Under the pieces are notes generated by a model, which saw only the letters and a list, made by a program, of their open reading frames with translations, was not told the origin of the DNA and searched no databases. A program made the translations under genes and the position numbers. Shown here piece after piece: positions 35,736-54,687 of a DNA stretch of 64,000 bases. This DNA comes from Alteriqipengyuania lutimaris (GTDB taxonomy: Bacteria > Pseudomonadota > Alphaproteobacteria > Sphingomonadales > Sphingomonadaceae), in assembly GCF_003363135.1 (NCBI RefSeq), contig NZ_QRBB01000001.1:2330501-2394500 (forward strand), in the 5' to 3' direction. Positions within the stretch are counted from its first letter, which is position 1. Each line of letters begins with the position of its first letter.

Positions 35736-35786
35736 TGCGACCCCCGCTAGATACCGCGTGACGCAAGTGCCGGTCACGTAAGGGGA

Positions 35787-37786: not shown

Positions 37787-37796
37787 GCGAAGCGCC

Positions 37797-40566: not shown

Positions 40567-41645
40567 CAGGCCAGCCCTCTTGCGATGATCGGTCCGATGC
40601 GATTGGCGACCGGCAGTGGGAGCTTCTTCCACGCCTCTATCTTGCGCGAGAAAGCATCGCTGGTCGGATCGACGTCGCGCGCTTCCTCGCCCGGCGCGGT
40701 CCAGCGCGAATAGGCGAGCGGCTGCGGCTCGAAACCCCAGTTCTTCTTGTAATGGTAAGGACCGCTCGCGGCTTTCGAGCGGCCGAAGTCGAACCGCGTG
40801 CAGTTTTTCTCGGCCCGCGCGTGACACATCAGCGCGTAGTACATCCGCTCGTTCGCGCGGGTTTCGCGTGCGCGCCAGACGCCGCCGCCCCAGAAGGGGT
40901 ATGCCGCCCCGTCGTGATAGAAGGTGAGCACGCTGGCGAGCGGTGCCTCCCCCTCCCACACGGTCAGGATATCGGCACGATCATCGAAGCCGCGCAGCAT
41001 GGCATCGAACAGCGCGCGCGGGAAAACCGGCGTGCCGAGGTTGCGAACGCTGGCGGCGTAGCAGGCGTAATGCGCAGCGCGATCGGCTTCCTTCGTCCCG
41101 ACCGTTACGGTGAAATCGCCCTTCAGGCTCTTGCGGACTTCGGCGCGCTGCTTGCGCGGGATGGCAAGCAGTTGCGCTTCGTCGTCAACCGCCAGATCGC
41201 TCACGAAACCAAAGTGCTTGCCGGTAATCTCGTCCCATCCCGCGGGGGTTTCGCCACCGCGCAGTTCGACTTCCGCGCAGGATTGGCGCTGCGCCAGCTC
41301 CGCGGCGGCGCGTGCGAGATGGCGCGCAACGCCCGGTTCGCTCGCGAGAATTCCGCCATCGACGGCGAACCCGCTCGACACCAGCGCGCGCCCGAACAGC
41401 GGCGAGTGCACCATCGTCAGCGGCAGCCAGCCGACGATGCGTCCAGCGCGCCGTGCGACCAGCCCGCAGGCCTGCTGGCCGGTGCCCCGCTCGACCGCAA
41501 TCAACCATTCGGGCAGGTGAAAGGGGCTCGCCGCGTTATCCTGCACGAAGTGCGCGATGCGGCGGGCCTGTTCCTCGTCGTGCATATCGGCGAGCGAGAT
41601 CGTCACATCTTCTTCGAAGTGATCGGGGGCGAAAGGCGCATTCAT
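40566..41645 (-). CDS. FemAB-family protein of the XrtA system
   Basis: A 359-residue GNAT/FemAB-type acyl- or aminoacyltransferase. It begins MNAPFAPDHFEEDVTISLAD and has FHLPEWLIAVERGTGQQACGLVARR near the N-terminus, then ERMYYALMCHARAEKNCTRFDFGRSK and GPYHYKKNWGFEPQPLAY at the C-terminus. The related proteins in exosortase loci probably transfer an amino acid to a polysaccharide or protein. It shares a four-base overlap with the deacetylase upstream and the glycosyltransferase downstream. Confidence 0.87.
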   Translation of the reverse strand: MNAPFAPDHFEEDVTISLADMHDEEQARRIAHFVQDNAASPFHLPEWLIAVERGTGQQACGLVARRAGRIVGWLPLTMVHSPLFGRALVSSGFAVDGGILASEPGVARHLARAAAELAQRQSCAEVELRGGETPAGWDEITGKHFGFVSDLAVDDEAQLLAIPRKQRAEVRKSLKGDFTVTVGTKEADRAAHYACYAASVRNLGTPVFPRALFDAMLRGFDDRADILTVWEGEAPLASVLTFYHDGAAYPFWGGGVWRARETRANERMYYALMCHARAEKNCTRFDFGRSKAASGPYHYKKNWGFEPQPLAYSRWTAPGEEARDVDPTSDAFSRKIEAWKKLPLPVANRIGPIIARGLA

Positions 41646-42544
41646 GCCGCCTCGCTTACGTCCGGTGCGATGGCAGCCTGCGCAATGGCATCGACCCTGC
41701 CCCATGCGAAATCGCCAAACAGGCGTTCGAGCTTGCCCTCCATGGCGGAGAGATTGGTGTAATGGCGCAGGCGCGAACGCAGCGGCGCGTCGGCGACCTG
41801 CGGCTGGCCTGGATCGACCTCCCACGGGTGGAAATAGAAGATCGCAGGCGCGCCTTCCTCGCGGTTCACCTGCGCAATCGCCCAGCGAGTGAAACCGTAA
41901 GGCAACGTCCGGAAGAAGCCGCCCCCGCCGGCTGCCAGCCTGCGACCGCGCAATATTGCGGTGGTCACGGGCAGTTCGACGAGATCCGCGCCCTCGACCG
42001 GGCGGAAGGCGAAACGCGGGGCGTCGCGCCAGCCGTAGTGATCGTGCGCGATCGGCGCCACGCTGGAAGAATAGGCATAGCCTTGCGCAGCCAGTTCCTC
42101 GTGCGCCCAGGGATTGCGCGCATCGATGGAGAAGCTGGGCGCGCGATAGCCGGTCACCGCCTGCCCGCTCGCGTCCTCGAGGATGGCGCGCGACTTGCGC
42201 AGGTCTTCCGCAAATTCGTTGCGGCTGAAGGTGAAAACGCGCTGGTGGTCGTAGCCATGGCTGGCGATCTCGTGGCCCGCATCGGCAATCTTGCGGATGG
42301 ATTGCGGCGTGCGCTCGGCGATCCAGCCGAGCGTGAAGAAGGTCGCCTTGACCCCTGCCCGCTCGAACAGCGCGAGGATCGCTTCAACATTGCGCTCGAC
42401 CCGCAGTTCGCAGCCATCCCAGTCGGCGCGCGGGATGGTGTTCTCGAACGCACCGACCTGAAACCAGTCCTCGACATCGACCGACAGGCCGTTGACGACG
42501 GCTCCTTGCGGCATCTGCGGATGCTGGGCGGGCGCGAGATCCAT
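41642..42544 (-). CDS. XrtA-associated polysaccharide deacetylase
   Basis: A 300-residue NodB-fold deacetylase that would remove acetyl groups from the polysaccharide. The metal-site motif is SVDVEDWFQ (Asp23/Asp26) with SHGYDHQRV (His96, His100), and YRAPSFSIDARNPW and HPWEVDPGQP are conserved further on. No signal peptide is evident, so it may work on lipid-linked precursors in the cytoplasm or be exported with its locus. It starts two bases after the ATPase stop. Confidence 0.9.
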   Translation of the reverse strand: MDLAPAQHPQMPQGAVVNGLSVDVEDWFQVGAFENTIPRADWDGCELRVERNVEAILALFERAGVKATFFTLGWIAERTPQSIRKIADAGHEIASHGYDHQRVFTFSRNEFAEDLRKSRAILEDASGQAVTGYRAPSFSIDARNPWAHEELAAQGYAYSSSVAPIAHDHYGWRDAPRFAFRPVEGADLVELPVTTAILRGRRLAAGGGGFFRTLPYGFTRWAIAQVNREEGAPAIFYFHPWEVDPGQPQVADAPLRSRLRHYTNLSAMEGKLERLFGDFAWGRVDAIAQAAIAPDVSEAA

Positions 42545-42546
42545 GG

Positions 42547-43746
42547 TCAGGCGGCCCGGTCTTCTCTCGGACGGTCCTCCTTGCCGAGCCATTCGATCAG
42601 CAGTTGCAGCAGATAACGAACGCTCTGCTCCTGATCCTCGAGCCGGGCTTCGAGCGTGGCGACCCGGTTCGCAAGATCGCCATCGCCGCGCGGAGTCCCC
42701 TCGATCGCGCGCGACAGCGTGGCGATGGCGGTGCGCAGCTCGTCCATATCGGTGCCCCTCGGTACCGAGGGGGCGGAACCGGAAGAGGCCTGCTGGCGCG
42801 AAGGTTCGGCTGCGGGATCATCATCGCGCGGCGCGGGTGCCGGCGCTGGCGTCGGCGCAGGCGCTGGAGCGCGCGAACGATCGGCAGCGCGATTGGCGAA
42901 GGGGCGCTTGTCCTCCTCGCCCTCTTCCGAACGCGCATCGCGCGCCATTTCCTCGACCACGTCTGCCAGCATGGCGCAGTCGATCTGGCTGCGCTGCTCG
43001 ACCGCGCCCATCAGCAGCAGGCGGGTGGCGATCTGGTTGACCCGGCGCGGGATACCGCCGCTCGCCTCGTGAATCGCAGGGAATATCTTGGGATCGAAGG
43101 ACGGGTAGCCCTTCCAGTTCACCAGTCCGAGGCGATGTTCGATATAGGGCGCCACTTCCTGCACCTCCATCGGGGTCAGGTGGTGCGCCGCGATCACGCG
43201 CTGGCGAAGCTGCTCCAGCCGGTCGTGCCGGGCGAGCGTCTGCTTGAACTCGGGCTGGCCGAGCAGGAGCTGCTGCAACAGCGGGTGCGAACCGAGCTGG
43301 AAATTGCTCATCATCCGCAGCTCTTCGAGCGCCTCGAAGCTCAGGTTCTGGGCCTCGTCCACCACCAGCAGGCACCGCCGGCCATCACGCGCTTCCTCGT
43401 GCAGGAAGGATTCGATCGCGCCCAGCGCGCTCGCCTTGTCCTGCCCCGCGACGTTCAGGCCGAAACTCTGCGCCACCAAGTGCACCAGTTCGCCGCCGTC
43501 CAGATTGCTGGTGACCACCTGGCCTACCGTCATCTGTTCCGGGTCCACTTTCTTCATCAGGTGCGCGACCATCGTCGACTTGCCCGAGCCGATCTCGCCG
43601 GTGATGACAATAAAGCCCTCGCCCTGCGCCATCCCGTAGCCGAGATAGCTCAGCGCCTTTCGATGCGTGATGCTTTCGAAATAGAACGCCGGGTCCGGCG
43701 TCAGCTGGAATGGGCGGCCCGAGAAACCGTAATACTGGTCGAACAT
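42547..43746 (-). CDS. XrtA-associated AAA ATPase
   Basis: A 399-residue ExeA/GspA-like ATPase of the PEP-CTERM/XrtA loci. Walker A is GEIGSGKS (Lys56), Walker B is LLVVDEAQN (Asp129-Glu130), and the start MFDQYYGFSGRPFQLTPDP is characteristic. After about residue 270 there is a proline/alanine linker (PAPAPTPAPAPAP) and a C-terminal coiled-coil-like segment. It probably drives or couples polysaccharide export. Confidence 0.9.
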   Translation of the reverse strand: MFDQYYGFSGRPFQLTPDPAFYFESITHRKALSYLGYGMAQGEGFIVITGEIGSGKSTMVAHLMKKVDPEQMTVGQVVTSNLDGGELVHLVAQSFGLNVAGQDKASALGAIESFLHEEARDGRRCLLVVDEAQNLSFEALEELRMMSNFQLGSHPLLQQLLLGQPEFKQTLARHDRLEQLRQRVIAAHHLTPMEVQEVAPYIEHRLGLVNWKGYPSFDPKIFPAIHEASGGIPRRVNQIATRLLLMGAVEQRSQIDCAMLADVVEEMARDARSEEGEEDKRPFANRAADRSRAPAPAPTPAPAPAPRDDDPAAEPSRQQASSGSAPSVPRGTDMDELRTAIATLSRAIEGTPRGDGDLANRVATLEARLEDQEQSVRYLLQLLIEWLGKEDRPREDRAA

Positions 43747-43772
43747 GGTGGGGTAAGGATCCTGGGTCGGGG

Positions 43773-45539
43773 TTAAAAGTCGTAACGCAGGCCGACGAGG
43801 GCCGAGGCGTTGGTTTCGTCGAGCGCATCGCTGTCGATCGTATCGACGGAAATGGCCGCGCGGGCGGAGAGGTTGCTGAACAGCGTGCGGCTGTAGGCCG
43901 CCGATGCACCGAGCAGCAGCGCGTCGTTCAGTTCGCTCGATCCCTGGTCGAGATGGCTGGCATAGCCGTTCAGGCTGAAGGAAGAGAACGCGTCGACCGG
44001 CGCACCGAGGCCGACATAGGCGTAGTAGGACTGGTCGACCGCGCCGTTGCCGGCCGCCAGTGCGGTGCCCTCGGCACCGAAGAAGCTGCGGCGGTCGTAG
44101 CCGACGGCAAGGCTCGTCGAAATGCGGCCCGACGACGTCGCATAGGCCAGCTGGCCGCCGCGATTGCGGAACACGGCGCCGCGCACGGACGACAGGGCAC
44201 CGCCCAGACAGCTCGCGGAGCCTTCCGCACCCGTGCCGCTGACGCAGCCGGTGAAGTCGCCGGTCAGCGAATTGCGCGAGGCAGTGAAGCCGGTTGGCAG
44301 GTTGGCGAGCGAATTGGTGATCGTGCCGCCGAAGCCGCTGACCTGATCGTAGACCGAAGCGTTGACCGAAGTGCGCGAGCTCGCCTGCCAGCCGAAGCTG
44401 CCGTAATAGGTATCGCTGTCGTAACGGCGGCCGTAATGCGCCTCGAACTGCGTGCGGCGCGAGGGTTTCCAGACGACGCCGACGTCCCAGATCAGCCCCT
44501 CGGTCTCGAAGGCGATCTGGCGCGGTGCGCTGTTATCGGTCTGGACGCGGCCACTGGCGTCGAGCACCGGATTGCCGGCCCCGTCGCGCACGACGTCGCG
44601 ATTGGAAATCTCGACATATTCGTAACCGACCCCGCCCACGGCGGCGAAGCCGGGGGCAAGCGGCACGGTGATATCCCCGCGGCCATAGACATCGCGCACG
44701 CGCTGGTCGGAAAAGGAGACCTCCTCCTGAAAAGCACCCGCGCCCATCGCGACGCCGACCGGCAGGACCGCGCCCGGGGCGACGCCGACGCGGGCATTGG
44801 CGGAATGGACGAAGCTTTCCTGTGCCACGTCGTCGACGGTCAGCGTATCGTCGACCACACCGACGGCAGGCTCTTCGATCCGGTTATACCCGAAGCGGTA
44901 GGAGGCGGACACGTCCGCCGCGCCGACCTTGGTCGACAGGGCGGGGCCCGCATAGCCGGAATAGATGCGGGCCTCCCTGTCGCGGTCGAGCGGCTGGCCG
45001 CTCGCGAGAGCCGCGCCCCCGCCTGCATCGGTCCGCGTCCGTGCAGCCAGACCGCCCGCCTCGACCGTGAAGCCCGGAGCAAGCGCTGCATAGCCGCGCG
45101 CCACCCCGGAAATATTGTCGCTATCCGCGTAATCGTCGCCGTAGCTGATCACCCGGTCGTAACGCAGCGAGACCGAACCGCCGCCGCGTCGCCCCTGGAC
45201 CGAAGCATCGACCCCGGCAGCAAGATCGGCGAAGGCCGCATCCTCGTCACCCGGCTCGATCTGGCGGGTGTAGGTCTGGTTGGCTTCGATATAGGGAGAG
45301 ACATGCAACCGCTGGCGGACCGGAGCATCTGCGGGCCTGCGCGGCTCGCCGTATGCACCGTCGCCCCCGGCTTGTTCGCCTTGGGTGCCCATCGAATCGC
45401 CATAGGCGGAAGCCTGCGCGTTAGCGGTAGCGCCACCGCCGGTCACTTCGTCGTCGCTCCAGACGTACTGCGCATGCGCAGGCACGGGCAGCAGGGCGCC
45501 GGCGCCGAGCAGGGCAGCGATCACTGGCAGGCGGTTCAT
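43773..45539 (-). CDS. XrtA-associated outer-membrane beta-barrel protein
   Basis: A 588-residue exported protein with signal peptide MNRLPVIAALLGAGALLPVPAHA and long alternating beta-strand segments ending in LVGLRYDF, with the terminal Phe typical of outer-membrane barrels. It belongs to the putative outer-membrane family that accompanies exosortase-A polysaccharide genes, perhaps the export pore. The ATG was chosen because it starts the signal peptide and follows GAGG; the upstream MRTSA is optional. It is 11 bases downstream of the autokinase gene. Confidence 0.87.
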   Translation of the reverse strand: MNRLPVIAALLGAGALLPVPAHAQYVWSDDEVTGGGATANAQASAYGDSMGTQGEQAGGDGAYGEPRRPADAPVRQRLHVSPYIEANQTYTRQIEPGDEDAAFADLAAGVDASVQGRRGGGSVSLRYDRVISYGDDYADSDNISGVARGYAALAPGFTVEAGGLAARTRTDAGGGAALASGQPLDRDREARIYSGYAGPALSTKVGAADVSASYRFGYNRIEEPAVGVVDDTLTVDDVAQESFVHSANARVGVAPGAVLPVGVAMGAGAFQEEVSFSDQRVRDVYGRGDITVPLAPGFAAVGGVGYEYVEISNRDVVRDGAGNPVLDASGRVQTDNSAPRQIAFETEGLIWDVGVVWKPSRRTQFEAHYGRRYDSDTYYGSFGWQASSRTSVNASVYDQVSGFGGTITNSLANLPTGFTASRNSLTGDFTGCVSGTGAEGSASCLGGALSSVRGAVFRNRGGQLAYATSSGRISTSLAVGYDRRSFFGAEGTALAAGNGAVDQSYYAYVGLGAPVDAFSSFSLNGYASHLDQGSSELNDALLLGASAAYSRTLFSNLSARAAISVDTIDSDALDETNASALVGLRYDF

Positions 45540-45550
45540 GGCGGAGGTCC

Positions 45551-46642
45551 TCATCCGTAATAGCTCCCGAAACGGCGTCCGCTTGGGCTGAAATTCGCGC
45601 CATTGAGCACCAGCTTGATGTCCGGGCAGGCGCCGAGAAGCTGTGCGGCATCTTCCAGCGCGCTCTTGGCGGTGCGATCGGCACGCGCGATCAAGATCGT
45701 CTGGCCGACATGCTTCGCGATTTCGGCCGCGGGCGATGCGGCCAGCGCGGGCGGGCTGTCGACCAGCACGATCCGGTTCGGTGCCTGCGCGGTCAGCCGT
45801 TCGAAGATTTCTGCGGTGCGACGGCTGGAAAGCGCCTCGCTCGCATGGCTTGCCTGGCGGCCGGGAGGCAGCAGCCAGAGGCCTGCGATATCGGTCTTGA
45901 GCACGTGCGCTTCGACGCGGCTTTCCGCATCGGCCAGCACATCCATCAGCCCGGGCCGATCGGGCAGGCCGAACACCGCCTTGACCGAAGGGTTGGCGAT
46001 GTCGGCATCGATCAGTACCACTTCGAGATCGCGCTCCGCGGCCAGCGACAGCGCGAGATTGACCGCGCAGAAAGTCTTCCCTTCGTTCTCGTGCGGCGAT
46101 GTGACGAGAACGCGCCGCGACAGCGCCGATCCGCCCAGTCGTGCGGTTTCGAGCACCTGACGCTTCACGATGCGGAACTCCTCCGCCAAGGCGGACGCCT
46201 GCCCGTGGGGATCGATGAAGCCGCGCTCTCGCAGGTTGTTGAAATCGACCTCCACGCTCTCGCCACTGAGGGCGATGGGGTTCGCGCGCCCTTCGATCAC
46301 CGCGGGCGGCGGCGCGGAGGGTTGCGCGGCAACCGGCAGCGCGCTTTCGACAGGGGGTTCAATCTCGGAATGCGCGGGTTCGACTTCGGTCGGAACCGGA
46401 GCGGGCGCGGGTGCGGGTGCGGCAGAAGGTGCATGCGCGCTGTCGGGCTGGCGCTGCTCACGCCGCAGCGGCCGCGCGCGCTTCATCGGCACGTCGTCGA
46501 AGCTTCGCGGCATCGGAGCCGCGCCGAGATCGTTGAGCCCGAAGGCGCCGCTTGCCCGTTCGAGCAGAGAGCTGCGGTCCGGGCGTTCATCCCCGCGCTT
46601 ATCCTCGTCCCGAGGCGGCTTGATGGGTCGGTGTTCGGTCAT
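45551..46642 (-). CDS. XrtA-associated tyrosine autokinase
   Basis: A BY-kinase-like 363-residue ATPase that normally pairs with the chain-length determinant. The first ~120 residues are a proline-rich low-complexity region. The P-loop reads SPHENEGKT (Lys189, Thr190), the Walker A' motif VVLIDADIANPS, and Walker B RIVLVDSPPAL. The C-terminus ends GRRFGSYYG, with only two adjacent tyrosines available for autophosphorylation. It starts 10 bases after the chain-length gene. Confidence 0.9.
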   Translation of the reverse strand: MTEHRPIKPPRDEDKRGDERPDRSSLLERASGAFGLNDLGAAPMPRSFDDVPMKRARPLRREQRQPDSAHAPSAAPAPAPAPVPTEVEPAHSEIEPPVESALPVAAQPSAPPPAVIEGRANPIALSGESVEVDFNNLRERGFIDPHGQASALAEEFRIVKRQVLETARLGGSALSRRVLVTSPHENEGKTFCAVNLALSLAAERDLEVVLIDADIANPSVKAVFGLPDRPGLMDVLADAESRVEAHVLKTDIAGLWLLPPGRQASHASEALSSRRTAEIFERLTAQAPNRIVLVDSPPALAASPAAEIAKHVGQTILIARADRTAKSALEDAAQLLGACPDIKLVLNGANFSPSGRRFGSYYG

Positions 46643-46652
46643 GTCAGCCCCC

Positions 46653-48161
46653 TCACGCCACCACCTGGCCGACCTGGACGAACTCGATGCCCAGCAGGAT
46701 GACGAGCAGCCCGGCCAACGCGGCGGTGCTTACGTAGAAGAGGCGCAGCTGCCGCGCTTCGGCAGCCTTGCGGGCGGGTGGGACAATCCTGCTGATCGTG
46801 CCCGCCACCGGCAGGCCGAGCGACTTGCTCAGCCCCGAACTGGTCGAGAACGTGGAACGCAGCATGGTCAGCGCGATCGCCGTGCCCAGCCCCGCGCCCA
46901 CGCCGAGCACCATCACCGCCAGCAGCAGCAGCGGCCGGTTCGGCGCGGCGGGGCGCGTCGAGACGGCGGGTGCATCGATGATGTCGAAGCGGAACGAACT
47001 GCGCTCGCTTTCAACCTGGCTGCGCAGCTCCATCTCCTCGCGATCCTTGAGCAATTCGTCGTACTTGTTCTTGAGGACCTCGTAATCGCGCCCGATCCGC
47101 TTGGCTTCGGCAGCCAGGCCGGGTTCGCTCGCCTGGTCGGCGATCGTCATCGACATGTCGGCCTGCAGCGCAGCCTTGCGCGCCAGCAACGCCTGCACGG
47201 TCGCCTGGCGATCCGCACGCAGCGAGACGAGCGAGCTGTAGGCGGGATTGGGAATGCCCCCCGCACTGCCGCCGCCGCCCGACTGGCGCAGCAACTGGAC
47301 CTGCCGCAGCGCGGTCTGCATGTCCGGATGGTTGTTCTTGAGCCCACGGGCACGCAGCTGCGCGACCTGCGCTTCGGCCTGGTCGAGCGCGCTGCCCCCG
47401 CCTGCCCCGCCGGGCAGGGTCTGCGGCGTACCCGCAAGCTGCCCGGTAATCTGCGCGAGCGCGCTCTGCGCCGCCGCAAGATCCGCCTCGACTCCGCGCA
47501 TTTCGGAACGTGCGTTTTGCAGGCGAGACGAAATCGCCTCCGAGCCGCCGATCAGTTCAGGATGCTCGGCCTCGAATGCGGTGCGCCGTGCTTCCGCCTC
47601 TTCGAGTTCGCTGGCGCGTTGGTCCAGCTGGCGGTCGAGCATGGCCACGGCCTCGTTCACCTCGCCCCGCGTGCCCTCCACATTCGCCTCTCGGAAAATC
47701 TCGAGCAGCTTGTCCACGACGTCGCGCGCCAGTTGCGCGTTCTCGTTGTCGGTCAGGTGGCCTTCGCTCATATACGCGGTGATTTCGAAGAGATTGTCGT
47801 CCTCGCTGCGCACCTGCACCTTCTTCGCAAGACTGGCGATCGCGTTTTCCATGTCGCGCGGCGTGTTTACGCCCTCGCCCAGCCGGGTCGCTTCAACGAC
47901 CTGTCCCAGCGTCGAGGCGCTCGCCATCCGCTGGCGAACCCGCACGATGTCGTTCATGTCGCTGCCCGCGATGCCGATCTGCTTGGACAGCATATCGTCG
48001 AGCTGGATGAAGATGCGCGCCTGGCTTTCGTAGGTGTTCGGGATCGTGGCGACGAACAGCCAGCCCGTCAGGCACACGGCCCATGCGACGCCCAGTACCA
48101 GCCACTTGCGGCTCCAGGCGGAATAGAGCGCTGCGCGCACTTCATCGAAGAGTTCGTTCAC
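46653..48161 (-). CDS. XrtA-associated polysaccharide chain-length determinant
   Basis: Wzz-like inner-membrane protein of 502 residues. The GTG start (MNELFDEVRAALYSAWSRKW) precedes a helix at about 18-37, then a long periplasmic coiled coil (EVNEAVAMLDRQLDQRASELEEAEAR), an Asn-His-Pro motif (KNNHPDMQTALRQV) and a C-terminal helix pair ending LLGIEFVQVGQVVA. A longer upstream reading overlaps the export gene in another frame, so the GTG is preferred. It acts with the downstream autokinase. Confidence 0.91.
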   Translation of the reverse strand: MNELFDEVRAALYSAWSRKWLVLGVAWAVCLTGWLFVATIPNTYESQARIFIQLDDMLSKQIGIAGSDMNDIVRVRQRMASASTLGQVVEATRLGEGVNTPRDMENAIASLAKKVQVRSEDDNLFEITAYMSEGHLTDNENAQLARDVVDKLLEIFREANVEGTRGEVNEAVAMLDRQLDQRASELEEAEARRTAFEAEHPELIGGSEAISSRLQNARSEMRGVEADLAAAQSALAQITGQLAGTPQTLPGGAGGGSALDQAEAQVAQLRARGLKNNHPDMQTALRQVQLLRQSGGGGSAGGIPNPAYSSLVSLRADRQATVQALLARKAALQADMSMTIADQASEPGLAAEAKRIGRDYEVLKNKYDELLKDREEMELRSQVESERSSFRFDIIDAPAVSTRPAAPNRPLLLLAVMVLGVGAGLGTAIALTMLRSTFSTSSGLSKSLGLPVAGTISRIVPPARKAAEARQLRLFYVSTAALAGLLVILLGIEFVQVGQVVA

Positions 48162-48175
48162 GTGCGTCAGGCCCC

Positions 48176-48817
48176 CTAGAACGCGCTTTCGGGGATGATG
48201 ATGACGTCGCCGGGTGCGAGCATCACGTTGGCGTCGCTGTCGCCGCGCCGCAGCAGGTCGGACAGGCGCAGCGAATATTCGCGCTGGCGGCCGAGACGCG
48301 GATCGAAGCGGATCAGCTTGGCCCGGTTGCCCGCGGCAAATTCGCTCAGGCCACCAACTGCAATCATCGCGTCGAGCACCGTCATATTCGCACGGTAGGG
48401 GATCGACGCGGGCTTTTCGGTCGCGCCGATAATCCGCACCTGCTGGCTGAAGGTGCCTGCGAACTTGGTCACGATGACCGAGACGATCGGCTGTTCGATG
48501 AATTGCGACAGGTGCAGGCGGATATCCTCCTGCAGCATGGCCGGGGTCTTGCCCACGGCGGGCATATCGGTGACGAGCGGGATCGTGATCCGACCGTCGG
48601 GCCGCACCTGAATATTGGTCGCGCCCAGCTCCGGGTTGCGCCACACGTGGATCGACAATTCGTCGAGCGGGCCGATCACATATTCCTGACTCGGACCTTC
48701 CTGCGTCGCCACGAAATCCGCCGGAGGCAGTTCGGGGCCACCGCCGCCCATGCATCCTGCAAGCGCGACAAGGCCGAGGATTAGCGCCGAAAACTTCGCA
48801 ATTGCGCGATTGCGCAT
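48176..48817 (-). CDS. XrtA-associated polysaccharide export lipoprotein (Wza-like)
   Basis: A 213-residue outer-membrane auxiliary protein. MRNRAIAKFSALILGLVALAGC gives a lipoprotein signal (Cys22), and a GGAAGG site lies upstream. The mature part has YVIGPLDELSIHVWRNPEL, the polysaccharide-export domain, then GRITIPLVTDMPAVGKTP and a SLBB segment with VRIIGATEKPASIPYRANMTVLDAM. It is the first gene of the leftward polysaccharide operon. The chain-length gene begins 15 bases after its stop. Confidence 0.9.
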   Translation of the reverse strand: MRNRAIAKFSALILGLVALAGCMGGGGPELPPADFVATQEGPSQEYVIGPLDELSIHVWRNPELGATNIQVRPDGRITIPLVTDMPAVGKTPAMLQEDIRLHLSQFIEQPIVSVIVTKFAGTFSQQVRIIGATEKPASIPYRANMTVLDAMIAVGGLSEFAAGNRAKLIRFDPRLGRQREYSLRLSDLLRRGDSDANVMLAPGDVIIIPESAF

Positions 48818-49024
48818 GGGATAGATCCTTCCGTTAGTGTCGACCCGACGGCGCGCCCGCGGGGTGCGCACGCCTTCCTGTCCGACGATTTGGGATCTTT
48901 CCTCGTCAAAAAGGGTGAATATCCCGTTAGCTAAGGGACTTGTCTTGCGCCGTTCCCGATACGGGACGGGCAGGCACGAAGTGTTAACGGGGCTTTGTCT
49001 TCAGCGCGCTTCGAACAACGACGC
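48818..49024 (-). promoter_or_regulatory. Leader region between decarboxylase and polysaccharide export gene
   Basis: This 207-base gap follows the decarboxylase stop and precedes the export lipoprotein. It contains CGTTCCCGATACGGGACG, an imperfect inverted repeat, near 48951-48968, and a minus-strand TTGACG at 48904-48909 that could be a -35 element. I find no TGGCAC-N5-TTGC site, although sigma-54 (PrsR) control is typical for such loci. Confidence 0.35.
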
Positions 49025-50275
49025 TCACACCAGCATCTCGATCGCCGGTCCCTGCCCGAGGAAGTGCATCGGGCTAGCGCTCGCGCCGTAGGCCCCGGCG
49101 CAGAACACCGCGACGAGATCGCCCACCTCGGCGCGCGGCAACTCGGCCTTGTCGGACAGGCGATCCAGCGGCGTACACAGGCAGCCGACAACATTCGCAA
49201 TTTCAGTGGGTTGCTCGCCATACCTGGTAGCAATTGCGAGGGGGTAGTTGCGCCGGACCACCGCCCCGAAATTGCCCGATGCCGCCAGTTGGTGATGGAG
49301 GCCGCCATCGGTGATCAGAAAAATCTCGCCATGGCTTTCCTTCCGGTCGACGATCTGGGTCAGATATACTCCCGCCTCGCCCACCAGATAGCGCCCCAGT
49401 TCGATCGCCATCTCGGTCTCGGCGAGTTCGTCGGGCAAATTCGCAAGCCTCTCGCCCAGCGCCGCACCGACCGCCGCGATATCGAGCGGCTCGTTGCCTG
49501 CAAAATAGGGAATGCCGAAACCGCCGCCGAGATTGAGCGCGGGGCACGCACGTCCCACTTCCCGAGCAATCCGCGCGGCGAGATCGAGCACATGGCCCTG
49601 CGTCTCGATCACCGCGTCGGCCTCCAGAGTCTGGCTACCGGTATAGATGTGCAGCCCGCGCCATTCGGCCCCGCCCTCGATCAACGTGGCGATCAGCGCG
49701 GGCACGCGCTGTGCGTCGAGCCCGAACTGCTTGGCCCCGCCGCCCATCTTCATGCCCGATCCGCGCATGTCGAAATCGGGGTTCACCCGCACCGCGATCT
49801 TGGGCCGAACGCCGAGCTCCCGCCCGATTTCGAGCGCACGCGCACCCTCGGTCTCGCTTTCGCAGTTGAGCGTCACGCCCGCTTCTATGGCAGCGCGGAT
49901 CTCGCGCGGGCGCTTGCCCGGACCGGCGAAGCTGATGTGCGTGCCGTCGATCCCGACACCTTGCAGGATCGCGAGTTCGCCGCCCGAGGCGAGGTCGAAC
50001 CCGTCGACCAGCCCCGCCATGTGGGCGATCACATCGGGATGTGGGTTGGCCTTGACCGCGTAATGGATCGCGAGGCTTTCGGGCATTGCTGCGCGCAACG
50101 CGGCCATGCGCGCGTCGAGCATGGCGCGCGAATAGACGAACAGCGGCGTGTCGCCTGCTTCGTCGACCAGATCGCTCACCTTGCGCCCGCCTATGGCAAG
50201 CTCGCCATCGAGCGTCTCGAACCCTGCGGGAATCGGGCCGAGGGGCTTGGGGGCGTTTGCGTCACGCCTGCTCAT
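49025..50275 (-). CDS. XrtA-associated PLP-dependent decarboxylase
   Basis: A 416-residue decarboxylase of the diaminopimelate/ornithine type. The PLP lysine is Lys75 in IHYAVKANPHPDV, with GFDLASGGELAIL, GLHIYTGSQ and LNLGGGFGIPYFA as family features and VFCAGAYGASASPMHF at the end. The start MSRRDANAPKPLGPI overlaps the ligase stop by four bases (ATGA). Its substrate is unknown; it sits with a ligase and carrier protein rather than with lysine genes. Confidence 0.9.
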   Translation of the reverse strand: MSRRDANAPKPLGPIPAGFETLDGELAIGGRKVSDLVDEAGDTPLFVYSRAMLDARMAALRAAMPESLAIHYAVKANPHPDVIAHMAGLVDGFDLASGGELAILQGVGIDGTHISFAGPGKRPREIRAAIEAGVTLNCESETEGARALEIGRELGVRPKIAVRVNPDFDMRGSGMKMGGGAKQFGLDAQRVPALIATLIEGGAEWRGLHIYTGSQTLEADAVIETQGHVLDLAARIAREVGRACPALNLGGGFGIPYFAGNEPLDIAAVGAALGERLANLPDELAETEMAIELGRYLVGEAGVYLTQIVDRKESHGEIFLITDGGLHHQLAASGNFGAVVRRNYPLAIATRYGEQPTEIANVVGCLCTPLDRLSDKAELPRAEVGDLVAVFCAGAYGASASPMHFLGQGPAIEMLV

Positions 50276-51798
50276 GCCGCCAGCCTTTCGCTGATTTCGC
50301 GGTACAGCGCGGTGCGGTCGATCTTGCCATTAGGATTGACCGGCAGCGCATCGCGCCACTCGATCGCATGGGGTTGCATGAAGCTCGGCAGATCGCGCTT
50401 GAGCGCGGTACGCAGAGCATCGGGCGCATCCCCGCCCTGGTCTCCGCGAACCACCAGATGGACCGCCTGGCCAAGCTTCTCGTCGGCGACACCGAAGGCG
50501 ACCGCATCGCTCACCAGTCCCGTCGCCAGCGCCGCATCCTCGATTTCCTGCGGGCAAATGCGGTTGCCCGCACTCTTGATCATCGCATCGCGCCGCCCGA
50601 CGAAATAGAGCAGCCCGTCGGCATCGCGCTTCACATAGTCGCCCGACCAGACCGCCGTGCCGCCATAATGCGAATGGGCGGGCGCAGGGCGATATCGCTC
50701 CGCCGTGCGCTCCGCATCCTGCCAGTACCCTTGCGCGACCAGCGGCCCGCAATGGACGAGCTCGCCTTCCTCGCCCGGCTCGGCAGGCCCGCCCGCATCG
50801 TTCACCACCAGCACTTCCGCAAAGGGCACTGCGCGGCCCATCGATGTGGGATGCGTGGCGACCAGCGCGGGATCGAGGAAGGTCGAGCGGAACGCCTCGG
50901 TCAGGCCGTACATCGGGTAGATATCCGCCTGAGGCCACCTGTCACGCATCGCACCGATCAGGTCCGGCGTCAGCGCACCGCCCGAATTGGTCAGGCGCTT
51001 GAGGCTCGTCCCCTCGCCATCCCACTTCGCTTCGACCAGCTGGCGCCACAGCGGTGGCACGGCGGCGAGCGTCGTCGCGTCATGCTTTGCCACCGCCTTG
51101 GTGACGTCGCGCGGCATCAGATAGTCGAGCGGGGCGACGCAGCCGCCTGCATACCATGTCGAAAGCAGCTGATTCTGCCCGTAATCGAAGGCGAGCGGCA
51201 GTACGGCAAGCGTCACGTCGTCGCTGCGCAGCTTCAGGTAATGCGCCACGCTGACTGCGCCCAGCCACATGTTCGCGTGGCTGAGCACCACGCCCTTGGG
51301 CTTGCCGGTCGAACCAGAGGTATAGAGGATCGCGGCGACCGACTGCGGGTCGGCAGCCGACTTTGGCAGCGGATCGAAGGCGCGCGAAGCCTCCAGCGCG
51401 TCCGCCTCTTCCATGATCGCGCAACCTTCGGGCACGTCGCCGTCTTCCAGCGTCGCCAGCCGCGCGGGTGTGCCGATCAGCAGGCTCGCGCCGCTATCGA
51501 CGATGATGTGCGCCACCTGCGCGCGCTTGAGCATCGGGTTGACCGGCACGTGGATCAGTCCCGCCCGCGCTGCGGCCAGCGGCAGCAGACAGGTCAGCTC
51601 GCCCTTCGCTGCCCACGAGGCGACCCGCCCGCCGTCCTGCCCGATTTGCATGCGCAGCCATGCCGCCAGCCGACCGACACGTGTTCTTAAGTCGGCATGC
51701 GTAAGGGTGCCGTCACGCAATGCCAGCGCCGGATCGGCATCCGCGCCACGCTCGGTCAGATGGTCGAGCGGGTAGAGGGTCGGATCGGGCTGGGTCAT
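50272..51798 (-). CDS. XrtA-associated acyl-CoA ligase (AMP-forming)
   Basis: ANL-superfamily enzyme of 508 residues that would adenylate a carboxylic or amino acid. The AMP motif is ILYTSGSTGKPKGV (around 157-170), later PMYGLTEAFRSTFLDP and GDYVKRDADG, and the catalytic lysine lies in NPNGKIDR (Lys492). With the carrier protein to the right it may load an acyl or aminoacyl group onto ACP. It diverges from the GNAT gene with a 62-base gap. Confidence 0.9.
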   Translation of the reverse strand: MTQPDPTLYPLDHLTERGADADPALALRDGTLTHADLRTRVGRLAAWLRMQIGQDGGRVASWAAKGELTCLLPLAAARAGLIHVPVNPMLKRAQVAHIIVDSGASLLIGTPARLATLEDGDVPEGCAIMEEADALEASRAFDPLPKSAADPQSVAAILYTSGSTGKPKGVVLSHANMWLGAVSVAHYLKLRSDDVTLAVLPLAFDYGQNQLLSTWYAGGCVAPLDYLMPRDVTKAVAKHDATTLAAVPPLWRQLVEAKWDGEGTSLKRLTNSGGALTPDLIGAMRDRWPQADIYPMYGLTEAFRSTFLDPALVATHPTSMGRAVPFAEVLVVNDAGGPAEPGEEGELVHCGPLVAQGYWQDAERTAERYRPAPAHSHYGGTAVWSGDYVKRDADGLLYFVGRRDAMIKSAGNRICPQEIEDAALATGLVSDAVAFGVADEKLGQAVHLVVRGDQGGDAPDALRTALKRDLPSFMQPHAIEWRDALPVNPNGKIDRTALYREISERLAA

Positions 51799-51845
51799 GA
51801 GAGGGAGTGTCGGGCCTCGTGAAAGCGGAGACCGGTGGCTATCAC

Positions 51846-51852
51846 AAGGAGG
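51846..51852 (+). promoter_or_regulatory. Strong ribosome binding site that sets the GNAT start
   Basis: AAGGAGG is a perfect Shine-Dalgarno sequence, eight bases before a GTG codon. Because longer in-frame starts lack such a site, the GTG at 51861 is taken as the true start. Confidence 0.6.
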
Positions 51853-51860
51853 TTACCAAT

Positions 51861-52829
51861 GTGCAAGGCGCAGACGATGCGCCGGGCGCATATGCGTGGA
51901 CTTCGCCCTTCGCGCGGCCCGAATGGTTGGCGCTGCTGACCGAGGCGCGCACAGGCGCCTTCACCGTGCATGCAAATGACCCGGGCGGCGCTGCCAGTCT
52001 CGCCCTGTGCCGCACGGACGGGCGCGTGGAGGCATTGCGCAACTGGTACGCCTTCACCTGGCATCCGGAGGTATCGCCCGGCCCGCAAGGCGATGCCGCG
52101 CTTGAGAGGATCGCCCAAGACTTGAAGCGCGAAGCCCCGCGCGTCACGCTCTGGCCCCTGCCCGACGAGGATGGCGCCGCAACGCGGCTCGCCCACGCCT
52201 TCCGCAAGGCCGGCTGGGTGGTCGCGCTGACCCAGTGCGACGAAAATCATGTGCTGCCGGTGAAAGGCCGAAGCTTTGCCGAATATTGGGAGAGCCGCCC
52301 CGGGCGCATGCGCACGACCCTGAAGCGCAAGGCCAAGAAGGTCGAGGTCGAAATAGTCGAGCATTTCGATCCAAACCTCTGGAATGCATACGAAACCATC
52401 TACGCCAAGAGCTGGAAGCCGAGCGAGGACGAACCCGATCTGCTGCGCCGCTTCGCGCAGGCCGAAGGCGCGGCGGGACGCATTCGACTGGGCGTAGCGC
52501 ATGCCGACGGCATACCTGTCGCGGCGCAATTCTGGACGGTCGAGAATGGCGTCGCCTACATCCACAAGCTTGCGCACCTCAAAAGCGCCAAGCCAATTTC
52601 GCCGGGCACGACGCTTTCGGCAGCGCTGTTCGAGCATGTCATCGACCGCGACCATGTCGATCTGGTCGACTTCGGCACGGGCAATGATGCCTACAAGGCC
52701 GACTGGATGGAGATGGTGCGCCCCCGCTACCGGCTCGACGCGCTCGACCCGCGCCAGCCGCGCGCCTGGCTGCCGCTGGCGAAGAGCGCGGTTCGCGCCG
52801 TCCTTGCCAGCGTGCGGGCCCAGCGCTAG
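51861..52829 (+). CDS. GNAT-fold acyltransferase (XrtA locus)
   Basis: A 322-residue acyltransferase-like protein of the GNAT/FemAB fold. Recognisable parts are FHVLPVKGRSF-like core VLPVKGRSFAEYWESRPGRMRTTLKRKAKK and AQFWTVENGVAYIHKLAHL, then LVDFGTGNDAYKADWMEMV at the end, typical of BioF2-like GNAT domains. The GTG start is chosen from its AAGGAGG site. It is read away from the ligase-decarboxylase pair and leads into the carrier protein, so it is probably part of the same pathway. Acyl donor and acceptor are unknown. Confidence 0.8.
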   Translation: MQGADDAPGAYAWTSPFARPEWLALLTEARTGAFTVHANDPGGAASLALCRTDGRVEALRNWYAFTWHPEVSPGPQGDAALERIAQDLKREAPRVTLWPLPDEDGAATRLAHAFRKAGWVVALTQCDENHVLPVKGRSFAEYWESRPGRMRTTLKRKAKKVEVEIVEHFDPNLWNAYETIYAKSWKPSEDEPDLLRRFAQAEGAAGRIRLGVAHADGIPVAAQFWTVENGVAYIHKLAHLKSAKPISPGTTLSAALFEHVIDRDHVDLVDFGTGNDAYKADWMEMVRPRYRLDALDPRQPRAWLPLAKSAVRAVLASVRAQR

Positions 52830-52867
52830 GGCCACGGCCAATTTTCATTGGCGTCAGACTAAGGCTC

Positions 52868-53173
52868 ATGACTGCACAAACATCCCAGCCGGCGGACCGG
52901 ACCGGCCCCGCGCGCTCCACCATCGACCAGACGCTGCGCGCGATCCTGCGCGACGTGCTAGGCCTGTCCGAGGCGCGCACGGCAGAGCTCAAGCCCGAGA
53001 GCGGCTTGTTCGGCCACCTGCCCGAACTCGACAGCCAGGCGGTTGCCGACCTGCTGACCGAGATGGAAGACCGGTTCGACATCGTGATCGAGGACGACGA
53101 AATCGACGGCGACCATCTCGAGACCTATGGCGGCCTCCTCGCCCTCGCCGAAGCGAAGACTGTCGCTTCGTAA
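52868..53173 (+). CDS. Acyl carrier protein
   Basis: A 101-residue ACP. The phosphopantetheine site is Ser56 in PELDSQAVADLL, slightly changed from the usual D-S-L, in the helix II context LFGHLPELDSQAVADLLTEME. The protein is acidic (DEIDGDHLE). The N-terminal 20 residues are a polar extension. It lies among exosortase-associated genes and is not part of the fatty-acid cluster, so it likely serves the ligase nearby. Confidence 0.88.
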   Translation: MTAQTSQPADRTGPARSTIDQTLRAILRDVLGLSEARTAELKPESGLFGHLPELDSQAVADLLTEMEDRFDIVIEDDEIDGDHLETYGGLLALAEAKTVAS

Positions 53174-53185
53174 CATGTCCGCCAC

Positions 53186-53902
53186 GTGAGCACCCCCATC
53201 AAGTTCGTCGAATGGCCGTGCCCTGAAACGAACGGCCGCGACACGGATGGCCGGACCCGCACCGAAGCTGCACTGGTCTTCGATGGCGGGCGCACGGCGC
53301 GTCTGATGGTGATCCCGCCGCTGTTCGAGGAAGCCAACAAGCTGCGGCACACGCTCGTCGAAGTGATGCGCCGGCTCGATGTTGCGGGGATCGACGGCGT
53401 CCTGCCCGACCTGCCCGGCTGCAACGAGAGCCTCGCCCCGCTTGCCGAGCAGACGCTCGACGGCTGGCGTACGGCGGCGCGCGCAGCGGCGGAGCATTTC
53501 CACGCTACCGCCGTGCTGACAGTACGCGGGGGCGCTCTTTTAAGGCCTGCGGGCTTGCCCGGGTGGGACTATGCGCCGCAGGACGGCGGAGAAGTGCTAC
53601 GCTCGATGGTCCGCGCACGGCTGATCGCCAGCAAAGAAGCGGGTGCGCAGGAAACCCGTGAAGACATCGAGGCACTGGGGTGCACGCAGGGCGCCACGCT
53701 CGCCGGATGGCAGATCGGACCGCACATGTTTGCCGCGCTGAAGGCGGCAGAGCTTCCACCGCGCGAGGACGGCGTCGCCCTGATCGATCAGGAGGCCGTC
53801 GGGGGCCGCCCGCCATGGCTGCGCGCCGAACCAGATTACGATCCTGCCCAGGCCGATGCGATCGCCGCGATCATCGCGGTCGCGATGAGGCAGGCCGAAT
53901 GA
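53186..53902 (+). CDS. Exosortase A-associated hydrolase 2-like protein
   Basis: A 238-residue alpha/beta-hydrolase-like protein with IPPLFEEANKLRHTLVEVMR, which fits the locus hydrolase 2 family (PPFAEEMNK in relatives). The nucleophile elbow is not a normal G-x-S-x-G: the nearest candidate strand reads VLTVRGGALL, so it may be inactive as a hydrolase or use other chemistry. The start is GTG (MSTPIKFVEWPCPE), because the nearby ATG is followed by an in-frame stop. It overlaps hydrolase 1 by four bases. Confidence 0.78.
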   Translation: MSTPIKFVEWPCPETNGRDTDGRTRTEAALVFDGGRTARLMVIPPLFEEANKLRHTLVEVMRRLDVAGIDGVLPDLPGCNESLAPLAEQTLDGWRTAARAAAEHFHATAVLTVRGGALLRPAGLPGWDYAPQDGGEVLRSMVRARLIASKEAGAQETREDIEALGCTQGATLAGWQIGPHMFAALKAAELPPREDGVALIDQEAVGGRPPWLRAEPDYDPAQADAIAAIIAVAMRQAE

Positions 53903-54687
53903 GCCGTCTGCACCTCACCTTCGCCTGCGAGGGCAGCACGCTGGCGGCGACGCTGGACACTGCCCCGCTGACCACCGGGCTGCTGCTGGTCAGCGGGGGC
54001 AACGAGCTGCGCAGCGGTGCCTTCCGGGGTCAGGCGCGGCTCGCGCAGACTATCGCCAAGCGCGGTTTCCCCGTCTTCCGTTACGATCGCCGCGGGGTCG
54101 GCGACAGCGAAGGCGTCAATCTCGGCTTTTCGGATTCCGAAGCCGATATTCGCGCCGCGCTGGAGGCATTTCAAGCCATCGCGCCGCAGCTCAAGCGCGT
54201 GATCGGCCTGGGCAATTGCGACGCGGCCAGCGCGCTGATGCTGGCGGGCGGCGCGGGCTGCGACGGGCTGGTCCTGTCCAATCCCTGGACCATCGAGGAC
54301 CATGCCGGGGGCAGCGGCGACTCCATGCCGCCGCCACAGGCGATCCGCGCGCGCTATCTAGAAAAGCTGGGCAATCCGCGCGAGGTCGCGCGGCTGCTGC
54401 GCGGAGGCGTGGACATGCGCAAGCTTGCCGGCGGGATTATGCGCGCCGCGCGCCCCGCCCCCGCAGCCAACGACCTCGCGACGCGGATGCAGGAAGGGCT
54501 CGCGCGGTTCGACGGGCCGACGCGTATCCTGCTCGCCAGTGCGGACCGAACCGCGCAGGCCTTCGAAGGGGCATGGCCCAGGGACGACGTCCGCCTCGTC
54601 CGCTGCGAAGGCGCGAGCCACGCGTTTGTCGAGCCGCATGCGCGCGAGTGGCTGGAGGCGAGAATCCTCGAAGCCCTGCGGGCCTAA
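53899..54687 (+). CDS. Exosortase A-associated hydrolase 1
   Basis: A 262-residue alpha/beta hydrolase. The start MSRLHLTFACEGSTLAATL overlaps the previous stop by ATGA. Landmarks are LLLVSGGNELRSGAFRGQARLAQ, FRYDRRGVGDSEG and the elbow IGLGNCDAASALML. The elbow has Cys where serine hydrolases have Ser, as in the family of locus hydrolase 1 (GLCDAAS in relatives). The likely acid and base lie in LLASADRTAQAF and CEGASHAFVEP. Its last four bases overlap the convergent RNA methyltransferase. Confidence 0.85.
   Translation: MSRLHLTFACEGSTLAATLDTAPLTTGLLLVSGGNELRSGAFRGQARLAQTIAKRGFPVFRYDRRGVGDSEGVNLGFSDSEADIRAALEAFQAIAPQLKRVIGLGNCDAASALMLAGGAGCDGLVLSNPWTIEDHAGGSGDSMPPPQAIRARYLEKLGNPREVARLLRGGVDMRKLAGGIMRAARPAPAANDLATRMQEGLARFDGPTRILLASADRTAQAFEGAWPRDDVRLVRCEGASHAFVEPHAREWLEARILEALRA

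Follow-up and report, generated by a model that had tools for sequence, protein, structure and literature searches.

A conserved gene module beside the exosortase A locus of Alteriqipengyuania lutimaris as a candidate beta-aminoacyl carrier-protein cassette

In the biosynthesis of vicenistatin, the AMP-forming ligase VinN loads the free-standing acyl carrier protein (ACP) VinL, and VinO, a decarboxylase dependent on pyridoxal phosphate (PLP), decarboxylates the loaded carrier (PMC11284099; for this and the other papers given by PMC number, our statements refer to the sections covered). For bolagladin, from a proteobacterium, it has been proposed that BolO, BolC and BolN load aspartate onto a free ACP and give beta-alanyl-ACP (PMC7756342), and in the BtrK/BtrI system of butirosin the decarboxylase BtrK acts on an ACP-bound amino acid (PMC7857480). 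Here we describe a six-gene module within a window of 64,000 nucleotides from Alteriqipengyuania lutimaris (contig NZ_QRBB01000001.1, positions 2,330,501 to 2,394,500; genome of 3.29 Mb, G000 in our samples). The module lies beside an exosortase A (XrtA)/PEP-CTERM block and encodes a PLP decarboxylase (DEC), an AMP-forming ligase (LIG), a FemAB-like protein (GNAT), an ACP and two alpha/beta-hydrolase-like proteins (HYD2 and HYD1). It is a real, conserved module with core chemistry of a known kind in a new setting, and its putative XrtA-linked transfer arm was not found described in the literature searched. We estimate at about 0.5 the probability that it is a cassette making an amine-bearing beta-aminoacyl thioester on a carrier, plus a transfer arm linked to XrtA.

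The module resembles the vicenistatin cassette in its AMP ligase with the same pocket residues, its free-standing ACP and its PLP decarboxylase of the type that acts on an ACP-bound amino acid, an assignment that for DEC goes through kinship with BtrK only. In vicenistatin biosynthesis, however, VinM carries out an aminoacylation and VinK a transfer before the cassette primes a polyketide synthase (PMC11284099), whereas the module has a cysteine alpha/beta protein, a pseudo-hydrolase and GNAT instead; no gene for a second aminoacylation, a VinK-type transfer, a polyketide synthase or a nonribosomal peptide synthetase was found among the 21 window proteins scanned. The bolagladin product, unlike that proposed for the module, enters a nonribosomal peptide after N-acylation, and the sections covered of PMC7756342 state no link to an exosortase or a polysaccharide. 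Butirosin BtrK differs from the proposed module in its substrate, glutamate. The butirosin loading ligase is of another kind than LIG. The core chemistry is described for these three pathways, which counts against the original prediction that the families are known only from exosortase loci.

The families TIGR03098, TIGR03099, TIGR03100 and TIGR03101 (exosortase A system-associated) carry names based on context, with no stated reaction. N-acyl amino acid synthases are reportedly linked to PEP-CTERM/exosortase loci, going by the title of Craig et al. 2011; those acyltransferases give long-chain N-acyl products, unlike the module, and GNAT matched no NCBIfam model at E 0.001. Among the matches listed from the open-access exosortase/PEP-CTERM literature (titles and starts of abstracts, subscription papers lying outside), none assigned a function to the module. 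The words 'decarboxylase', 'ligase', 'acyl', 'hydrolase', 'GNAT' and 'asparagine' do not occur in the main text of the 2006 PEP-CTERM paper (PMC1569441), and the literature matches listed held nothing to the point on beta-alanyl groups in polysaccharides.

DEC scored 574.3 bits against TIGR03099 (cut-off 478.45), and its closest solved structure by sequence is BtrK (2j66, 7ru7) at 247 bits, about 90 bits above the best LysA (155 bits). DEC and BtrK have the motifs LCTPxD and GAYGxSxSPxHFLG in common, with ICETGD standing in LysA at the place of LCTPxD. Assignment of DEC to LysA or the lysine pathway was rejected, as DEC is nearer to BtrK and its 237 bits against TIGR01048 lie under the cut-off of 297.9. 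The identity of DEC is 91% to that of another Alteriqipengyuania locus (L104) and 90% to that of an Erythrobacter locus (L103). The host genome holds two further relatives of the DEC superfamily elsewhere.

LIG scored 611.7 bits against TIGR03098 (cut-off 592.35). When the 138-residue segment of its pocket was compared with the Protein Data Bank (PDB), VinN (3wv4/3wvn) came first with 38 bits, the next match having 30. D205, S272 and R304 of LIG align with VinN chain positions 246, 315 and 347, which are D230, S299 and R331 provided that the chain numbering runs 16 above that of the protein; all three residues of the VinN-type recognition of the alpha-amino and alpha-carboxyl groups, whose roles are stated in PMC7756342, are matched in LIG. 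D205 and R304 were found in 39/39 homologues, and position 272 was S in 28, T in 10 and A in 1. A PLP decarboxylase requires the alpha-amino acid head of its substrate to be free, so the ACP-bound substrate must hang by its side-chain carboxyl, and the conversion of aspartate to beta-alanyl-ACP would therefore be the simplest reading. We infer that the substrate of LIG is an amino-dicarboxylic acid, most likely aspartate attached via its side-chain carboxyl. A sphingolipid-type fatty acyl-ACP ligase (AasR/AcpR, PMC9386255) was rejected as an identity for LIG, whose pocket is VinN-like; moreover, the word 'decarboxylase' is absent from the main text of PMC9386255, as far as covered.

LIG and DEC were found or missing together in two genome samples, one of 398 genomes of the phylum and the other of 84 genomes of the family. 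Among the relatives tested in the family, LIG was present in 20/20 with DEC (18 genomes without XrtA, plus G441 and G466, with G460 outside the test) and in 0/11 without DEC. Of the 30 DEC genomes in the phylum sample, 29 had LIG over its cut-off; the other, G126, reached 549 bits vs 592.

We propose that LIG would adenylate the side-chain carboxyl of an amino-dicarboxylic acid (likeliest L-aspartate) and load it onto ACP, as its pocket and homology suggest. DEC would then remove the alpha-carboxylate, which stays free when the amino acid is bound to ACP, to give beta-alanyl-ACP with a free primary amine, a step to which its kinship with BtrK and the precedent of VinO point. Aspartate loading and decarboxylation on the ACP are, judged from the sequence, probably what these two enzymes do. 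In XrtA genomes, the HYD1 cysteine would take the acyl group and, with the nucleophile-less HYD2 as a partner and the FemAB-like GNAT in some genomes, hand it on to an acceptor produced by the same locus, probably an exopolysaccharide amino sugar or its lipid-linked precursor. Invariant residues, co-occurrence and context suggest this third step: that HYD1 is an XrtA-linked transferase falls slightly short of even odds, and that a polysaccharide is the acceptor, a likely candidate already put forward in the original prediction, is more tentative still. The observed basis of the whole proposal is gene order, residue conservation and co-occurrence. The earlier outline, in which an acid is loaded onto the ACP, decarboxylated and transferred, still appears the best reading, with the substrate narrowed to an amino-dicarboxylic acid and most likely aspartate.

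The phosphopantetheine serine of ACP was conserved in 37/37 rows. In the PDB, ACP matched 2lki best (51 bits), an entry deposited under the name 'putative uncharacterized protein' that may show a member of the same ACP family. HYD1 scored 224.9 bits against TIGR03100 (cut-off 168.45); its Cys, Asp and His each occurred in 26/26 rows and are also invariant in alignment A2, the Cys lying at the nucleophile elbow. HYD2 reached 39 bits against TIGR03101, far under the cut-off of 202.75, and stands where its counterparts stand in the gene order of relatives. At its nucleophile position, 25/26 rows had Arg and R114 was invariant in alignment A3; the sole other row (L102, with Ser, 25 bits) is a spurious match, leaving Arg in all 25 genuine rows. 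The profile alignment of HYD1 with HYD2 (95.6%) stops right before C107 of HYD1 and R114 of HYD2, which are matching places. With these residues, an ordinary serine alpha/beta-hydrolase was rejected for both proteins. Both are hydrolase-like, as had been predicted, but to call them two hydrolases would mislead, one having a Cys nucleophile and the other none. A Cys rather than a Ser nucleophile suits transfer better than hydrolysis. Profile comparison gave GNAT a fold in common with the FemAB protein of the XrtA locus (84% over 259 columns), and GNAT exceeded 100 bits in 11/26 HYD1 loci of the phylum set and in 64/64 of the sphingomonad set.

All six reading frames are present as predicted and match their families, DEC, LIG and HYD1 over curated cut-offs, HYD2 weakly, and GNAT and ACP through general models only. 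From the coordinates, DEC and LIG overlap by 4 nt, as do HYD2 and HYD1, and HYD1 starts at 53899 rather than at the 53680 given earlier. A divergent gap of 62 bases, also part of the original prediction, exists only if GTG 51861 is the start codon of GNAT. That codon has a strong ribosome site, but since the YH[D/K] motif common to GNAT homologues lies upstream of it, a start at GTG 51807 with an 8-base gap is likelier. In relatives of the window, HYD1, GNAT, ACP, LIG and DEC are grouped together in a conserved order, which is therefore far from chance.

HYD1 followed XrtA closely. In the phylum sample, XrtA was over its cut-off in 35 genomes, DEC in 30, LIG in 29 and HYD1 in 26 (28 at E 1e-30). 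DEC and XrtA occurred together in 27 genomes, and HYD1 was present in 27/27 of these, G126 being counted although just under the cut-off (166 vs 168); the other 371 genomes gave one weak HYD1 match (G335, 113 bits). HYD1 was missing from all three of the 30 DEC genomes without XrtA over its cut-off (G107, G396 and G155, the last with a weaker exosortase match and G107 with no XrtA match at E 1e-20) and from all eight of the 35 XrtA genomes without DEC over its cut-off (G303, G376, G007, G015, G267, G340, G368 and G375). In the family sample, HYD1 was found in 52/54 XrtA-positive vs 2/30 XrtA-negative genomes (Fisher p 1e-17, kinship ignored), with HYD1 counted at E 1e-20 (54 genomes, 51 over cut-off), DEC at E 1e-100 (73 genomes, 71 over cut-off) and XrtA in 54. 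The exceptions were G441 and G466, with XrtA and no HYD1, and G417 and G460, with HYD1 and no XrtA; the latter two are incomplete or fragmented, G417 being 67% complete.

DEC behaved differently from HYD1, occurring in 54/54 XrtA-positive and 19/30 XrtA-negative family genomes, 11 of these 30 carrying an exosortase-like match under the cut-off. The core as an obligate exosortase companion was rejected, as 3/30 DEC genomes of the phylum sample and 19/73 of the family sample lacked XrtA over its cut-off. The claim that these families are known only as exosortase-locus companions is not supported; the core also occurs in polysaccharide loci of rhizobia, where the stretch examined carries no annotated exosortase. 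Co-occurrence of all six genes with XrtA, which had been set as a refuting test, held almost perfectly for HYD1 but not for GNAT, with its 11/26 loci in the phylum set, and the module or parts of it lie far from XrtA in G349, G318 and G102. In G318, 25 kb separate HYD1 from XrtA, and DEC is far away; this one case agrees with HYD1 going with XrtA.

Loss of the XrtA arm was followed in 80 named loci, the best by identity, with XrtA sought at the locus only. HYD1 was present in 64, and nine of the 16 loci without it were left out as short or ending before the place of HYD1 (L106, L110, L124, L134, L137, L139, L153, L157 and L174). The remaining seven (L111, L116, L118, L119, L132, L143 and L164) have kept ACP, LIG and DEC and contain at the locus neither XrtA nor the glycan genes, GNAT, HYD2 or HYD1. 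A gene for a TIGR03015-type ATPase is kept beside DEC in L116, L118, L143 and L132, which lack an XrtA gene, and L132 also keeps the deacetylase. Six of the seven HYD-less loci have outer neighbours in common. The outer neighbours of L075, of the L132 lineage, are those of the window itself, an AFG1/ZapE-type ATPase and a crotonase on one side and an RlmD-like gene on the other; L132 and L075 are apparently one genome, with identical DEC and contigs of equal length. On a DEC tree computed from the 430 C-terminal residues of every DEC frame, the HYD-less label needs seven changes, at least five of them forced by well-supported branches, with L068 and L082 counted and L082 scored as HYD1-absent though HYD1 sits elsewhere in its genome.

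The XrtA-less core does not look like a decaying leftover, and this explanation was rejected: D205, R304, K75, C367, D371 and the ACP Ser were kept in 10/10 rows (S272 being T in three). The dN/dS values of DEC and LIG were 0.08-0.16 in five XrtA-less pairs vs 0.04-0.20 in five XrtA-positive pairs, synonymous sites being near saturation in several pairs and one XrtA-positive DEC pair being without a value. Because the catalytic residues are kept and dN/dS is low, the core appears to be functional without XrtA.

The core was also found in other genomic contexts. DEC relatives at E 1e-40 occurred in 70 plasmid records, three of which were examined in context. On pSymB of Sinorhizobium meliloti ml45, LIG, DEC and an ACP frame lie amid glycosyltransferases, a deacetylase and an O-antigen ligase gene, and no exosortase is annotated in this 19-kb stretch, whose gene table is incomplete. 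Megablast found the LIG-DEC piece of pSymB in 27 Sinorhizobium records, S. meliloti Rm41 included, but not in NC_003078 (strain 1021), and a 45-kb stretch of NC_003078 gave no tblastn match to DEC, LIG, ACP or XrtA. In S. meliloti, the piece looks strain-variable. The context on Aureimonas pAU20a is like that on pSymB, plus an O-antigen translocase, with no exosortase annotated nearby, and Sphingomonas parapaucimobilis has an ordinary XrtA locus without GNAT. Directly before LIG in Sinorhizobium, Aureimonas and G107, in polysaccharide loci lacking an annotated exosortase, there is a conserved protein of 289-295 residues, 57-60% identical, which matched no Pfam model at E 0.1.

Glycosyltransferases lie near the core in L100, L101 and L094. 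In L095, a gene for a protein like aminoglycoside 3-N-acetyltransferase (AAC(3)) overlaps the ACP gene by 4 nt. A B12-binding/radical SAM protein is encoded between DEC and ACP in L095. In the XrtA-less G396 (L069), the core adjoins a chalcone/stilbene-synthase-like gene and a gene for a pyridine nucleotide-disulphide oxidoreductase. A consumer that depends on context would fit a core that supplies an aminoacyl donor. The features of the window and of the compared loci are listed in Table 1.

Table 1. Positions of the module, the adjoining XrtA block and selected features of related loci (window positions unless preceded by a locus handle)
Feature	Coordinates	Strand	Description
Crotonase family gene	34809..35777		Flanks XrtA block; best NCBIfam match PRK08788, also RpfF-like at 186 bits
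XrtA/PEP-CTERM block	35888..48871	-	Found by NCBIfam scans; followed by the six-gene module
XrtA block members			TIGR03108 amidotransferase; XrtA with EpsI-like tail; TIGR03087 glycosyltransferase; TIGR03019 FemAB protein
XrtA block members, continued			TIGR03006 deacetylase; TIGR03015 ATPase; TIGR03007 and TIGR03027 (chain-length and export proteins)
XrtA block members, sub-threshold			TIGR03016 outer-membrane protein, weak match; TIGR03018 tyrosine kinase, under cut-off
Six-gene module	49025..54687		DEC to HYD1
DEC	49025..50275	-	Alanine-racemase-fold PLP decarboxylase, BtrK-like, TIGR03099; K75, motif LCTPLD
LIG	50272..51798	-	AMP-forming ligase, TIGR03098; VinN-like pocket D205/S272/R304
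GNAT	51807..52829	+	FemAB-like Acetyltransf_6 protein, PF13480; not universal
ACP	52868..53173	+	Free-standing acyl carrier protein, PF00550 at 25 bits; phosphopantetheine serine in ELDS
HYD2	53186..53902	+	Alpha/beta-hydrolase-like; Arg replaces nucleophile; weak TIGR03101
HYD1	53899..54687	+	Alpha/beta-hydrolase fold, TIGR03100; predicted Cys-Asp-His triad C107, D216, H241
289-295-residue protein before LIG	L183:6499-7386		Locus without annotated exosortase
289-295-residue protein before LIG	L185:5521-6390		Locus without annotated exosortase
289-295-residue protein before LIG	L068:7790-8677		Locus without annotated exosortase
B12-binding/radical SAM protein	L095:11582-14307		Radical SAM protein between DEC and ACP; the stretch is given jointly for it and the AAC(3)-like gene that overlaps the ACP gene
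Genes adjoining core in G396	L069:6032-8224		Chalcone/stilbene-synthase-like gene; pyridine nucleotide-disulphide oxidoreductase

Several observations weigh against a beta-aminoacyl cassette with an XrtA-linked transfer arm. When full-length LIG was compared with the PDB, multi-domain peptide synthetases came first (LgrA with 225 bits across two domains, of which the better gave 132, and 8xjz with 201 bits), and VinN stood behind them with 165 bits. The sequence does not settle between aspartate and 3-methylaspartate or glutamate. The nearest solved relatives of HYD1 by profile are ordinary hydrolases (MHETase, S33), so HYD1 may simply hydrolyse the thioester. LIG and DEC persist without XrtA and HYD1 in 18 relatives, in which the core product must therefore have another use. 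The independent-pairs test of the XrtA block against HYD1, which corrects for phylogeny, was not significant with only five usable pairs; on average, 2.3 of these changed as expected, 2.7 showed no difference and none went the other way. No polysaccharide gene was found among the five neighbours scanned in each of L098, L093 and L097, nor among the five scanned in L069, which speaks against a universal polysaccharide role. Finally, the literature found gives no experimental substrate, product or acceptor for this module.

The core might instead be a carrier-bound beta-alanine route, in which a thioesterase would free the decarboxylated product of the loaded aspartate for pantothenate and CoA synthesis in panD-less sphingomonads. 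We regard this as unlikely, yet it is a live rival because the DEC-positive family genomes tested lack panD: the gene was found in 0/36 distinct DEC-positive vs 4/11 DEC-negative genomes (Fisher p 0.002, kinship ignored; G417, one of the DEC-negative genomes, is 67% complete). panC was present in 16/18 genomes tested, and in 8/8 DEC-positive ones, G000 included. For Erythrobacter sp. SD-21, Table A2 of PMC7142369 records KPHMT (PanB) and PS (PanC) and a score of 0 for ADC, GAD, PYD2, PYD3, AAM and GabT, and the locus of this strain (L118) keeps ACP-LIG-DEC and the ATPase gene with no HYD and no other XrtA-block gene; the dN/dS of the XrtA-less pairs also agrees with such a supply. However, 7/11 DEC-negative relatives lack panD as well, and 4/6 of these tested have panC, so other beta-alanine routes must exist. 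On a wider list, panD was found in 0/30 module genomes and 6/25 others, leaving 19/25 non-module genomes without it, and G010, one of these six and outside the family, has panD alongside relatives of DEC and LIG that stay under the cut-offs. The same Table A2 gives GAD a score of 1 in two further strains of Erythrobacter. Making ACP itself requires CoA, and beta-alanine did not rescue the bolagladin bolN mutant (PMC7756342), indicating that the product stays on the carrier in that pathway. Beta-alanine supply also leaves the tracking of XrtA by HYD1 unexplained.

About as unlikely is an editing role, with HYD1 and HYD2 as thioesterases that clear mis-loaded ACP and with GNAT or the XrtA-locus FemAB protein carrying out the transfer. 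The profile matches of HYD1 to esterases and hydrolases would agree with this, as would the FemAB fold of GNAT and the presence of FemAB in GNAT-less HYD1 loci such as L085, L086, L088 and L089. The invariant Cys in place of Ser in HYD1 fits transfer better, however, and the 18 XrtA-less relatives with DEC and LIG manage without HYD1.

The core could also load glutamate or another amino acid and give a gamma-aminobutyryl or other group, as in butirosin, which seems to us somewhat less likely again. Of the solved decarboxylases, BtrK, whose substrate is a glutamyl carrier, is the closest to DEC by sequence, but no chain named VinO was among the 42 PDB matches of DEC, and this nearness therefore does not rank BtrK against VinO. 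The LIG pocket, on the other hand, follows that of VinN, described as 3-methylaspartate-specific in the sections covered of PMC11284099. That an ordinary fatty acyl-ACP ligase and an unrelated decarboxylase were joined by operon drift, for which the membership of LIG in the large acyl-CoA ligase superfamily might be cited, is highly improbable given the shared presence and absence of LIG and DEC in the family (20/20 and 0/11) and the 29/30 DEC genomes of the phylum sample.

A bolder extension of the proposed cassette concerns XrtA itself. XrtA is thought to be sortase-like, and a sortase requires an amine nucleophile, which in Staphylococcus is the glycine bridge made by FemABX. The module may build the amine that exosortase A uses as the attachment point for its protein substrates, with HYD1 and HYD2 placing a beta-alanyl group on a polysaccharide or lipid carrier, an idea that we hold to be speculative and improbable as it stands. 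If true, it would account for HYD1 occurring almost only with XrtA and being missing where XrtA is missing, and for the FemAB-like protein and the deacetylase in the locus. It does not by itself explain the 8/35 XrtA genomes without the module.

The proposed cassette would assign definite reactions to gene families whose database names reflect nothing but their neighbourhood, and would divide these families between a beta-aminoacyl-ACP core that is portable and a transfer arm tied to XrtA. The attachment target of exosortase A and the products of its companion genes would become specific enzyme and labelling tests, and the possibility is raised that panD-less sphingomonads have a carrier-protein route to beta-alanine.

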